A model generated the notes under the pieces. That model made no database searches. It saw nothing but the letters and a program-made list of their open reading frames with translations, and was not told where the DNA came from. Made by a program: the position numbers and the translations under genes. From positions 1 to 64,000 of the forward strand of contig JAIBDD010000005.1 of NCBI GenBank assembly GCA_024679565.1: a DNA stretch of 64,000 bases, written 5' to 3'. The stretch is from Bacteroidota bacterium. Its GTDB lineage: Bacteria > Bacteroidota > Bacteroidia > NS11-12g > UBA9320. Below, in pieces: positions 24,166 to 28,846 of this stretch; position 1 is the stretch's first letter; every line of letters starts with the position of its first letter.

Positions 24166-26889
24166 ATGAAGAAGAATATCTACTATAGTGTCGCAGCTGT
24201 TGCTGTTGTTGTAATCGCAGGATCACTAACAACTGTGTCGCTCGACGATCAGACAGTGTATCAACCACGTGAATTAAGTCAGTCAAATACTGAGACTTTT
24301 ATGGGGGCGCAAGAGTATATGAATAGCCTTAGAGCTAATCAATATACTGGTGTTGTAGATCCTAAAGATGTTGCACAAGCGAAGGCAGAATTAGCTGATT
24401 TCCGAAAAACTCATGGAAAAGCGAGCTACCCATTATCATGGTCGTTTGCGGGCCCTGACAACCGAGGTGGGCGAACAAGAGCACTTCTTATCGACAGAAA
24501 CGACAATAACGTATTGTATGCTGGAGGTGTAATGGGTGGCGTGTTTAAGTCAATAAACAAAGGCGCTTCTTGGTACCCAGTTAATGACCATTTTGAAGAT
24601 ATGTCGGTTTCTAGTATTTGTCAAACTCCTGACGGAACGATCTATTTCGGTACTGGTGAGTCATTCACTGGTGGAGGAGGGCAGGAAGCCTTTACTCCTG
24701 GATTTAGAGGTGGAGGAATATACAAGAGTACAGATGACGGAGTGACTTTCGAGAAAATAGCACCTACCGGAGGATTTGCATATGTAAATAAGGTGGTGTC
24801 CCATCCAACAAAAAATGTTGTATTTGCTTCAACCAATACAGGGTTGCGTGTGTCAACAGAAGGAAACGACGAACAATGGACGTTGGTGTTAGGTGGTAAC
24901 GCTCGAGATTTTGTCATTGATAAAAATGGTAATGCCTTGGCCTATACCAATACGGTATATAGATCTGAAGACCCAACGACGAATGGAAGTTACAGCGCTG
25001 TCTCAGGCCTTCCTTTGGGAGGTGTTAATCGAATCGCACTTGGTGTTTCTGAATCTGACCCTAATTACTCTTATGTGGTTATTGTTGGTACAGTAACGTT
25101 TAATGGACCAATTGGACGTGTAACTGCAGGTTCTGGTTTGGTAGGAGTGTATCAGTCGAAAGACAATGGTAAAAACTTTAACAGAATCATTGGTAATGCA
25201 AGTTCATTTTTTGCTCCATGGTGTGTTCCAACTTTATCTACTGGCCCTAGCTCAATTCATTCACAGGGTTACTATGACTTATGTATCGGTGTTCACCCAA
25301 CGCAAAAAGAGAGAATCTTTATGGGTGGAATTCAATTTGCAGAATGGACACCTGAAACAGGAGCCAGAATCGTTGGTAATAACTTTGACAGTAAAGCGAA
25401 CCCATTTGGTATTCATGCAGATAAGCATTTTATCACATTTGACACCAAGTCAAACCCAATGATTATGTATGTGACTTCTGACGGAGGAGTAAGCAAAACT
25501 ACTAATGCAGATATGACCAATTATACGACGTTGTATAACGGCTATGGTACTACTCAGTTTTATGGAGTTGCAGGAGGTATTAACGGTACGGTGATTGGTG
25601 GAACACAAGACAACAATTCTATGGTAATTGATGGTAAAGGAAATACGCCACAAGCCGCAGAAGATATCATTGGTGGTGACGGATTTCAGTGTGAGATTTC
25701 AAGAATTAACCCTGATATCGTTTTTGCTGAAAGTCAAAATGGAGGGATGATTCGATCATTAAATGCTGGAGGTTCTCCTTCAAGAATTTGGGACAGCAGA
25801 CTGGCAGGAAGCGGTGAGGCAGCTTCTTTGAATACGGATGGTACGATAAGACAAGCGAATAATATTTTTAATACACCTATGCAGCTTTGGGAAGACTTGA
25901 GTGATTCTACGAATCGATTGTTCTTTGCAATGGATAATGCAGTATGGATGGCAAACGGAGCGGTACTTTCACCTAACCCTCAATGGTTTAAATTGGCAGC
26001 AACTTCATTTAGACCTCATGCGATGAAGATTTCTCCAGATGGTGCTTCATTATATGTATCTAGTACAAATTCTGGGACATTGAGCAGAATAGACGGAATA
26101 CAAGCTGCAGTTTGGGATACGGCGATGTTATCTGGAGCAACAATTTCTGACAGTCTAAGCATCAGAAATATTAACTCAAACCTGCCAAGTGGGCGTTCAG
26201 TGACTGATATTGAAGTAGATTATAACAATCCAAACCGTGTAATCGTAACTTTAGGAAATTATGGTAACTCTAGCCATGTTTATATTACAGAGAATGCTTT
26301 AGATGATGCACCAACATGGAGAAGTATCCAAGGAGCATTGCCTAATTTCCCTGTGTATGATGCAGAAATTAGCGTATCTAATCCGGCACATATAATCTTA
26401 GGTACTGAGTTTGGTATATACTATGCGCAAAATGGAAATGCAACTACTCCAACTTGGACATTCAACAAAGACAGTATGCCAACTGTTCCTGTATTTCAAA
26501 TCCGACAAGTGGAAGAGAAAGTTTGGCAAAGCGGAAAAAGAACCGGTGCTGTTTTAGTTGCTGGTACTCATGGACGTGGAATTTGGAGATCGTCAAGTAT
26601 GTTGACAAGTGTTAAGAATGTAACAAGTACAAGTAACGTAAAACTTCGTGCATACCCGAATCCATCGTCGAACAAAATATCGATCGACATGCCAATCAAC
26701 GGGAATGATGAACTAACGGTTAAGGTGTATAATTATCAAGGACAGTTAATGCAGTCACGTGTTGTCAATGTAAATGGTTTGCAACAAACGATAGACATGG
26801 ATGTTAATCAGTTGTCAGCGGGTAATTACATTATTCAAGTAACAGGCGAAAAACATAACGGTGCAACAAAGTTTGTAAAAATTGACTAA
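24166..26889 (+). CDS. Secreted beta-propeller (sortilin/VPS10-like) with type-A T9SS sorting domain
   Basis: A 907-residue exported protein. After an N-terminal signal (about 1-27) and a short pro-like region, residues about 85-800 form an Asp-box beta-propeller: FKSINKGASWYPV, IYKSTDDGVTFEKI, YQSKDNGKNFNRI and others follow the SxDxGxTW pattern of sortilin and BNR-type propellers. A conserved WSFAGPDNRGGRTRALL opens the propeller. The last 75 residues (LRAYPNPSSNKISID, VKVYNYQGQL, LSAGNYIIQVTG, KFVKID) are the type-A T9SS C-terminal domain. Likely on the cell surface or released; binding partner or enzyme activity unknown. A terminator follows. Confidence 0.9.
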   Translation: MKKNIYYSVAAVAVVVIAGSLTTVSLDDQTVYQPRELSQSNTETFMGAQEYMNSLRANQYTGVVDPKDVAQAKAELADFRKTHGKASYPLSWSFAGPDNRGGRTRALLIDRNDNNVLYAGGVMGGVFKSINKGASWYPVNDHFEDMSVSSICQTPDGTIYFGTGESFTGGGGQEAFTPGFRGGGIYKSTDDGVTFEKIAPTGGFAYVNKVVSHPTKNVVFASTNTGLRVSTEGNDEQWTLVLGGNARDFVIDKNGNALAYTNTVYRSEDPTTNGSYSAVSGLPLGGVNRIALGVSESDPNYSYVVIVGTVTFNGPIGRVTAGSGLVGVYQSKDNGKNFNRIIGNASSFFAPWCVPTLSTGPSSIHSQGYYDLCIGVHPTQKERIFMGGIQFAEWTPETGARIVGNNFDSKANPFGIHADKHFITFDTKSNPMIMYVTSDGGVSKTTNADMTNYTTLYNGYGTTQFYGVAGGINGTVIGGTQDNNSMVIDGKGNTPQAAEDIIGGDGFQCEISRINPDIVFAESQNGGMIRSLNAGGSPSRIWDSRLAGSGEAASLNTDGTIRQANNIFNTPMQLWEDLSDSTNRLFFAMDNAVWMANGAVLSPNPQWFKLAATSFRPHAMKISPDGASLYVSSTNSGTLSRIDGIQAAVWDTAMLSGATISDSLSIRNINSNLPSGRSVTDIEVDYNNPNRVIVTLGNYGNSSHVYITENALDDAPTWRSIQGALPNFPVYDAEISVSNPAHIILGTEFGIYYAQNGNATTPTWTFNKDSMPTVPVFQIRQVEEKVWQSGKRTGAVLVAGTHGRGIWRSSSMLTSVKNVTSTSNVKLRAYPNPSSNKISIDMPINGNDELTVKVYNYQGQLMQSRVVNVNGLQQTIDMDVNQLSAGNYIIQVTGEKHNGATKFVKID

Positions 26890-26915
26890 GCCCGTTAATT
26901 CAAAAATTATAAATG

Positions 26916-26943
26916 AAACCCAGGTTAATAGCCTGGGTTTTTT
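26916..26943 (+). terminator. Intrinsic terminator after the T9SS propeller gene
   Basis: A nine-base-pair stem AAACCCAGG/CCTGGGTTT with a seven-base loop and a run of six T. Confidence 0.88.
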
Positions 26944-27595
26944 GTTTTGGTTAAAATGGGTCGGTTCTTTTATATGGCCAATTACGGTAGTTAAGCACCA
27001 GTCTGAAGAAGAGTACTTAGAGCTGGTTCTATTCCGAGGGAGTCGTCTTTTAAATAGCCGTAATGCCAACTACTCTAACGGTAACCTCCAAACAGCATAC
27101 AGAAACCTGTTCGCAGAAGTGGATTTGAATTTGTCTCAACGGAAACGAGTCCTAATTCTTGGGTTTGGTTTTGGGGGCGTGGCTGAATTGATTACGCAAT
27201 CAAACCCTTATGCACACATTACTGGAGTTGAGTCCAACACAACTGTATTAACGTGGTATAAGGCATATTGTAAGCAATTACACAATGTGAAACTGGTGTT
27301 GCAGGATGCTAAGGAATTTATGTCTGGAGATGACCAGAGATATGATTTAATTGTGTATGACATTTATAACGACATGGAAGTGCCAAAATTTTTCCAGTCA
27401 AGTGAGTTCATTCATCAGCTTGGTAGTCGGCTTGCTACATCTGGTGCTGTAATTTTTAACAAGGTGGTGCAAAATCGGGAACATAAAAACGAGTTTAACG
27501 CGATCTTTCTTGAAATGTCAAACGTTTTTTTAAACGTACAAGTAAATGAGCAGTTTGGGTTAAATCGATTTGTAGTCGCCAAAAATAGGACATAA
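26942..27595 (+). CDS. Spermidine synthase-like methyltransferase-fold protein
   Basis: A protein of about 217 residues with the Rossmann motif RVLILGFGFGGVAELI, acidic strand 2 ITGVESN, NVKLVLQDAKEFM and YDLIVYDIYNDMEVP, the layout of spermidine synthase-type proteins, with LNSRNANYSNGNLQTAYR replacing the usual gate-strand sequence. The key aspartates of true spermidine synthases are only partly kept, so polyamine activity is uncertain. The open frame extends back to a TTG at 26882, but that would run through the terminator of the previous gene; the TTG at 26942 directly after the hairpin is preferred. Confidence 0.72.
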   Translation: MFWLKWVGSFIWPITVVKHQSEEEYLELVLFRGSRLLNSRNANYSNGNLQTAYRNLFAEVDLNLSQRKRVLILGFGFGGVAELITQSNPYAHITGVESNTTVLTWYKAYCKQLHNVKLVLQDAKEFMSGDDQRYDLIVYDIYNDMEVPKFFQSSEFIHQLGSRLATSGAVIFNKVVQNREHKNEFNAIFLEMSNVFLNVQVNEQFGLNRFVVAKNRT

Positions 27596-27649
27596 TGGCG
27601 CCTTATTTGACCATTGCGCCAAAAAGTAAGACATAGTGTCACTTATTTT
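27577..27649 (+). repeat. Two imperfect direct repeats upstream of hsp20 (possible activator sites)
   Basis: Copies at 27577-27608 and 27617-27649 both start CGCCAAAAA and contain GACATARTGKC (27589-27599 and 27630-27640, a partial dyad; the second, GACATAGTGTC, is symmetric) then a TTATTT. They are 40 bases apart. The first overlaps the 3' end of the preceding gene. Position and spacing upstream of a sigma-54-like promoter suggest binding sites for an NtrC-type activator. Confidence 0.55.
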
Positions 27650-27663
27650 AATGAATTTTCAAT

Positions 27664-27679
27664 TGGTACAGTGGTTGAA
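27664..27679 (+). promoter_or_regulatory. Putative sigma-54 (-24/-12) promoter of hsp20
   Basis: TTGGTACAGTGGTTGA matches the TGGCAC-N5-TTGC consensus at most positions with exact spacing (GG at 665-666, GA in place of GC at 677-678). Transcription would start near 27690, about 20 nt before the ATG. No TAnnTTTG box is seen. Confidence 0.5.
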
Positions 27680-27708
27680 CTGGGGAGAATAAATAAAACA
27701 TTAGAAAA

Positions 27709-28149
27709 ATGACACTTACAAAATTCAAACCTCGAACTTCTTTATTTAGCAACAATTTTTATCCATCAGCATTTGATAACATATTTTCAGATTTAATGCG
27801 CGACACCAATCGACCGTTGGAAGGATTTGTTACCCCTAGTGCTGAGGTAATAGAAAGCGACAAAGACTTTAAAATAAATTTGATGTTCGCTGGATTTGAC
27901 AAGAAAGACATAAAGATTGATATGCAGGAGAACGAATTAACCGTGACTGCTGAAAAAGTTGAAAAGAACACAGAAGAAAACGAAAAGTACCACCTAAGTG
28001 AGTTTAGAAGTGGTAAGTACAAAAGAAGTTTTCACCTTCCTGAAAACGTTAGTGCAGATAAAATTGAAGCTGAGCTGAAAAACGGAATATTGGGGTTGGT
28101 GATACCTAAAAAAGCAAAAGCCAAATTAAAAGCGATTTCCATAAAGTAA
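27709..28149 (+). CDS. hsp20: Hsp20/alpha-crystallin small heat-shock protein
   Basis: A 146-residue ATP-independent holdase that binds unfolding proteins in the cytosol. The alpha-crystallin domain spans about 40-140: PSAEVIESDKDFKINLMFAG, ITVTAEK-type strand (ENELTVTAEKVE), FRSGKYKRSFHLPENVSADKIEAEL and the signature ELKNGILGLVIPK. The C-terminal tail carries KAKAKLKAISIK, matching the usual I/V-x-I/V tail (ISI). It has a dedicated promoter region with direct repeats and its own terminator, so it is monocistronic. Confidence 0.96.
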   Translation: MTLTKFKPRTSLFSNNFYPSAFDNIFSDLMRDTNRPLEGFVTPSAEVIESDKDFKINLMFAGFDKKDIKIDMQENELTVTAEKVEKNTEENEKYHLSEFRSGKYKRSFHLPENVSADKIEAELKNGILGLVIPKKAKAKLKAISIK

Positions 28150-28167: not shown

Positions 28168-28197
28168 AAAACCCAGTTGAACAGCCTGGGTTTTTTT
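28168..28197 (+). terminator. Intrinsic terminator after hsp20
   Basis: A nine-base-pair stem AAAACCCAG/CTGGGTTTT, nine-base loop, followed by T residues to 28197. Confidence 0.88.
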
Positions 28198-28219
28198 ATG
28201 TTTTCTTTACCTTCGGAAA

Positions 28220-28846
28220 GTGAAAAAGCGAATTTACGAGTTGTTGAATAGGGGCGAAGATGATACGCTAGATTACAAACAAAGTATTACGAGTGCAGCA
28301 AAAATTGCTAAAACGATGGCTGCATTTGCTAATCACAAAGGAGGAGTATTACTTGTTGGGGTGAAAGACAACCGAAAGGTGTCTGGAGTAAAAAGTGACG
28401 AAGAGTATTATATGCTTGATTTGGCGGCCCGGTTTTACTGTAAACCAGAGGTTACTCTAGATATCAAACAACACACTATAGAGGGGAAGGAAATTCTTGA
28501 ATGCATTGTTTTGCCTGGCGCCGAAAAACCTTATTACGCTAAGGATGAAAATGGGAAGTGGTGGGCATATGTTCGAGTAAAGGATAATACACTTCTAGCG
28601 AGCAAAATTGTATTGGATGTGTTGAAAAGAAATGCATCAAGTCAAGGAACACTAATCAACTACTCTAGTAAAGAAAAAGCGTTGTTGGAATATTTGTCTG
28701 AAAATGATCGAATAACCCTAAAAGAGTACAAACACATGATCAACATCAGCACGCGAAGAGCCACAAAAATTATCGTAAATATGATTAGCGCAGGCCTAGT
28801 GAGGTCACACACAACAGAAAAAACCGAATATTATACACTTGTGTAG
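28220..28846 (+). CDS. AlbA_2 (Schlafen-type) domain protein with C-terminal winged helix
   Basis: A 208-residue protein. Residues about 5-125 form the AlbA_2 putative nucleic-acid/ATP-binding domain: EDDTLDYKQSITSAAKIAKTMAAFANHKGGVLLVGVKDNRKVSGV is its hallmark region, and KPYYAKDENGKWWAYVRVKDNTLLAS its end. Residues about 150-205 look like a winged helix (KALLEYLSENDRITLKEYKHMI, STRRATKIIVNMISAGLV). Likely a DNA-binding regulator, although no target is known. Start is GTG at 28220 after the hsp20 terminator. Confidence 0.85.
   Translation: MKKRIYELLNRGEDDTLDYKQSITSAAKIAKTMAAFANHKGGVLLVGVKDNRKVSGVKSDEEYYMLDLAARFYCKPEVTLDIKQHTIEGKEILECIVLPGAEKPYYAKDENGKWWAYVRVKDNTLLASKIVLDVLKRNASSQGTLINYSSKEKALLEYLSENDRITLKEYKHMINISTRRATKIIVNMISAGLVRSHTTEKTEYYTLV

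Follow-up and report, generated by a model that had tools for sequence, protein, structure and literature searches.

A predicted sigma-54 promoter with paired activator sites upstream of hsp20 in a Bacteroidota genome, and a candidate orphan activator shared with dnaK and groESL

Chaperone gene control in Bacteroidota is poorly described. Sigma-54 has been implicated, and no activator is assigned in the searchable papers. The transcription start-site map of Flavobacterium psychrophilum (2021) has sigma-54 starts (motif SM4) at groESL, lon, dnaK, grpE-dnaJ, htpG and clpB, and leaves the sigma-54 activators unassigned (PMC9723704). A 2025 prediction of the Bacteroidota sigma-54 regulon includes chaperone genes, the small heat-shock group COG0071 among them (PMC12316311). 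The initial annotation of the locus described here suggested that a small heat-shock gene under sigma-54 and an enhancer-binding protein (EBP) would be an unusual stress circuit. The sigma-54 reading is supported, but the arrangement is less unusual than supposed: sigma-54 control of chaperones has already been published for this phylum in the two sources above (PMC9723704; PMC12316311), which makes hsp20 under sigma-54 one more instance of an established pattern.

The hsp20 locus

The window, i.e. the whole stretch of DNA analyzed, is 64,000 nt long and belongs to contig C34. The genome has a size of 2.65 Mb, and its closest named relatives are metagenome bins of uncultured Bacteroidia and Bacteroidetes. 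hsp20 (positions 27709–28149, plus strand) encodes a predicted 146 aa small heat-shock protein. The product is a true member of the HSP20 family (PF00011, E-value = 5e-23) and its gene is the only HSP20 gene found in the genome. A spermine-synthase-like methyltransferase gene at 26882–27595 lies directly 5′ of hsp20, and the same neighbor is present 5′ of hsp20 in most relatives that carry the same hsp20 lineage. At the 3′ end a likely intrinsic terminator is located at 28169–28198 (plus strand), where the hairpin ACCCAG...CTGGGT is followed by a T run; the fold z-score of the hairpin is only −1.9. Past it, on the same strand, is an open reading frame for a Schlafen/AlbA_2 domain protein (PF04326) at 28220–28846.

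The sequence TTGGTAC-N5-TTGAA (TTGGTACAGTGGTTGAA) at 27663–27679 on the plus strand is a predicted sigma-54 promoter, with the −24 element at 27663–27669 and the −12 element at 27675–27679. The promoter and its −24/−12 spacing are present as the initial annotation had described them. At the −12 element the G is followed by A, as opposed to the consensus C (GA, not GC). The hsp20 transcript would be expected to start near position 27690.

Upstream of the promoter is an imperfect direct repeat, with copy 1 at 27581–27608 and copy 2 at 27622–27649 (both plus strand). Two repeats of about 33 nt, 40 nt apart, had been proposed; the two repeats are there, but each copy is 28 nt long, the copies are 71% identical and their spacing is 41 nt. 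The GACATARTGKC core reported for them is found in both and proves to be one case of the palindrome TGNCA-N3-TGNCA. Each copy holds one predicted activator site. The distal site, GACATAATGGC, is at 27589–27599 (plus strand), where it overlaps the stop codon and end of the methyltransferase gene, and it is kept in relatives. The proximal site, GACATAGTGTC, is at 27630–27640 (plus strand), 41 nt from the distal site, and its center is 30 nt before the GG of the −24 element.

GNCANNNTGNC occurs 11 times in the window where 11.5 occurrences are expected, i.e. there is no excess, and the other matches checked in the window (4337, 51476 and 51660) are all intragenic. The initial annotation had recommended a genome search for further TTGGYAC-N5-TTG promoters with the repeat; TTGGYAC-N5-TTGM has nine matches in the genome against six for the reversed control. 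Genome counts of the annotated core or promoter exceed those of reversed controls slightly or not at all and do not define a regulon by themselves, and many of the other promoter matches in the genome fall within genes. One perfect match, TGGCACACGCATTGCAA (G000:C9:45852-45868, minus strand), is apparently intergenic and lies about 240 nt before a methylmalonyl-CoA-mutase-like gene. Counts within the window or the genome by themselves leave the motifs at chance level, and the case rests on comparison with relatives.

Conservation and helical phasing of the upstream sites

Upstream regions were inspected for 19 hsp20 hits in the order, and 16 of them were counted. The other three (L086, L088 and L092) were set aside only after inspection; they are without the methyltransferase neighbor and without the motif, and look like other, more distant hsp20 lineages. 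The core G.CA-N3-TG.C is found in all 16 upstream regions, with 30 sites in total, and spacers of 0–2 and 4–8 nt in place of 3 nt give only 0–2 sites each in the same regions. The sites are paired at a distance of 40–42 nt in 12 of the 16 genomes and the exact sigma-54 gap is present in 13 of 16, all of these being counts from relatives that are not independent of each other. The repeats are therefore kept in related genomes, a point that the initial annotation had put forward for checking. The center of the proximal site is 30–31 nt from the GG of the −24 element in eight genomes; in four others the distance is 20 nt, and these two positions are one helical turn apart.

The same combination is found at two further chaperone loci. 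Each of the 13 genomes compared for dnaK has a sigma-54 promoter 30–50 nt ahead of this gene, with the gap exact in every case. TTGGCAY with a weaker −12 element is present before groES in 14 of 14 genomes, and the groES −12 element is without TTG in most of them. The −24 match is at a fixed position for dnaK (13/13) and for groES (14/14). The palindrome TGNCA-N3-TGNCA, with one mismatch at most, is found upstream of both genes in all of these genomes, where the background is about 0.1 per 250 nt. The match is poorer at dnaK, where the half-site often reads TGACT or TGACG. Preference for the 3-nt spacer is clear for hsp20 and for the EBP operon described below, and weaker for dnaK and groES.

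The distances between site and promoter at hsp20, dnaK and groES fall near 20, 30, 41, 51, 61, 72 and 81 nt. This corresponds to a periodicity of about 10.2 nt (Rayleigh, n = 52, R = 0.67). When near-equal distances are collapsed, which leaves 26, a fit this good is not reached by any of 20,000 random sets. At groES in other families of the class, 10 of 11 distances lie within 1.5 nt of the series; this tolerance was chosen after the distances had been seen and close relatives are not independent, and the phasing figures should be read as indicative. Judged from the sequences compared, the motifs in relatives are conserved, fixed in spacing and helically phased to a degree far beyond chance.

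Two other loci of the source genome may be mentioned. The upstream region of clpB displays no clear sigma-54 promoter, although the F. psychrophilum clpB has one. A clpC-like gene (L166, upstream of 1885, G000:C41) has the sequence TGGAATTATATTTG, with sigma-54-like spacing, shortly before its start, and is without a good TGNCA-N3-TGNCA site upstream.

The orphan enhancer-binding protein

The genome has a single rpoN, whose product displays the AID, CBD and DBD domains, so that the sigma factor looked for by the initial annotation is present. There are four full sigma-54 activators, three with receiver-like N-termini and a fourth without. The annotation had also called for an NtrC-type regulator. 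Activators with the sigma-54 interaction domain do exist, but the best candidate is an orphan that has no receiver domain. Separately, a response-regulator EBP (G000:C41:21033-21533) is interrupted by an in-frame TAG, which represents either a broken gene or an assembly error.

The orphan EBP (G000:C6:64578-65828) is a 417 aa protein that consists of AAA+, lid and Fis HTH domains only (PF00158, E-value = 3e-66; PF02954, E-value = 6e-13). The GAFTGA loop is invariant. No receiver or other N-terminal sensor domain was found in the protein, the AAA+ domain beginning directly, and a long linker carries a conserved SERDIFYKVLFDM...DLKK block. An orthologue is present in 14 of the 15 genomes of the order that were tested, and in a sample of the phylum 37 of 46 genomes have a close match, including all those sampled from the class. 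Several genomes have only the orphan EBP and one other EBP. The recognition helix is nearly invariant across orthologues, as would be expected if the site had remained unchanged.

The gene is part of the cluster miaB-EBP-lptE-TPR-secG-groES-groEL. At the promoter of the miaB-EBP operon, TGACA-CAT-TGTCA lies a short distance ahead of TATCTTTG, a match to the sigma-A −7 box TAnnTTTG (box from PMC9723704). The site overlaps the sigma-A (housekeeping) promoter of the operon. It is present there in all 12 genomes compared from the order (eight exact) and is exact in 8 of 10 further genomes of the class. Its position is before miaB, or before the EBP gene itself where that gene stands alone. Autoregulation is commonly indicated by a site that remains with a regulator gene when gene order changes, and this one stays with the EBP gene when the cluster breaks up.

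These observations bear on which protein binds the sites. A response-regulator EBP of the NtrC type might bind at the sigma-54 promoters of hsp20, dnaK and groESL, the orphan EBP being near groES by coincidence. Such an EBP occurs in all of the genomes tested as well, and presence alone does not decide between the two. However, the response-regulator EBPs of the source genome have recognition helices that differ from that of the orphan EBP, the orphan adjoins groESL in several families, and the site is found at the orphan's operon promoter across the class and stays with the EBP gene where this is separated from miaB. Binding by a response regulator is accordingly considered unlikely. It is more doubtful still that the palindrome binds a repressor or other factor at a sigma-A promoter, with the −24/−12 match incidental. 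The overlap at the EBP operon, where binding would probably be repressive, speaks in its favor, but the sites keep in phase with the −24 element at three different genes, the −24/−12 spacing is conserved, and the groESL and dnaK promoters of F. psychrophilum are of the sigma-54 type (PMC9723704). That the promoter and repeats are a functionless chance resemblance, as their chance-level frequency within the window alone might suggest, can be dismissed, since it is contradicted by the sequence, pair spacing and phasing kept in diverged genomes.

Proposed regulation and comparison with known systems

The orphan EBP probably activates hsp20, dnaK and groESL through sigma-54 at TGNCA-N3-TGNCA sites and controls its own gene. 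The proposal is built on what can be read in the sequences themselves, i.e. the sites and promoters, the way in which these are phased and conserved, rpoN and the EBP gene. RNA polymerase with sigma-54 would transcribe hsp20 from the −24/−12 promoter. The EBP would bind the two hsp20 sites on one face of the DNA and reach the polymerase from close by, and the promoter would then be opened by ATP hydrolysis, which is the general mode of action of EBPs. The same protein would drive dnaK and groESL, whose sigma-54 promoters also carry the site, and we infer that the genes respond to heat or misfolded protein. At its own operon the EBP would bind the one site and block the polymerase at the sigma-A promoter. 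The overlap of site and promoter suggests that the effect there is probably repression. hsp20 looks like one member of a Bacteroidota sigma-54 chaperone regulon.

A wider proposal is tentative. The orphan EBP could possibly be the master heat-shock activator of the class Bacteroidia. Having no sensor domain, it would be restrained by its own negative loop and by the very chaperones whose genes it switches on, and sigma-54 with a single titrated EBP would fill the role that sigma-32 or HrcA has elsewhere. Titration by chaperones is a guess, and the restraint would act perhaps at the conserved linker block.

Because the site is shared, is helically phased and also occurs at the promoter of the activator itself, the question of chaperone control narrows to one named gene and one DNA sequence. 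In addition, the rigid, short and phased enhancer geometry, which evolution has kept in steps of whole helical turns, offers a natural experiment on the access of sigma-54 activators to the polymerase.

The closest described system is that of F. psychrophilum, which likewise has sigma-54 −24/−12 promoters at chaperone genes including groESL and dnaK. It differs in that the table, in its quoted part, does not list hsp20 and the quoted text describes no upstream operator (PMC9723704). The 2025 prediction differs in the use of a promoter matrix only, and its chaperone passage mentions neither activator nor operator (PMC12316311). In the searchable literature, the scope of which leaves out most subscription journals and preprints, no account was found of the operator, of its phasing or of an assignment to one orphan EBP, and a paper on the sigma-54 regulome of Desulfovibrio vulgaris was found to give no heat-shock targets.

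Escherichia coli ibpB is a small heat-shock gene that has both sigma-54 and sigma-32 promoters. This case differs in that it belongs to another phylum and has sigma-32 as the main control, and ibpB is not known to share an operator with hsp20.

The CIRCE/HrcA system resembles the present one in having a palindromic operator at groESL and dnaK. It differs in that the CIRCE-type operator TTAGCACTC-N9-GAGTGCTAA is absent from the sequences upstream of groES and dnaK in the source genome and is seen in other members of the phylum. A reading of the palindrome as a CIRCE-type operator was accordingly rejected. Among the groES genes of distant members, L220, L221 and L226 display CIRCE in place of a sigma-54 promoter, and L222, L224, L225, L227 and L228 display sigma-54-like promoters. 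Judged by these upstream regions, the split is a switch of chaperone control within the phylum.

EBPs of the PspF type consist of AAA+ and HTH domains without an N-terminal sensor, serve a stress regulon and have their own gene controlled from a housekeeping promoter. The orphan EBP resembles them in domain make-up, in its proposed stress regulon and in the proposed control of its own gene from such a promoter. It differs from them in its regulon, in its site and in the long linker that carries the SERDIFYKVLFDM...DLKK block.
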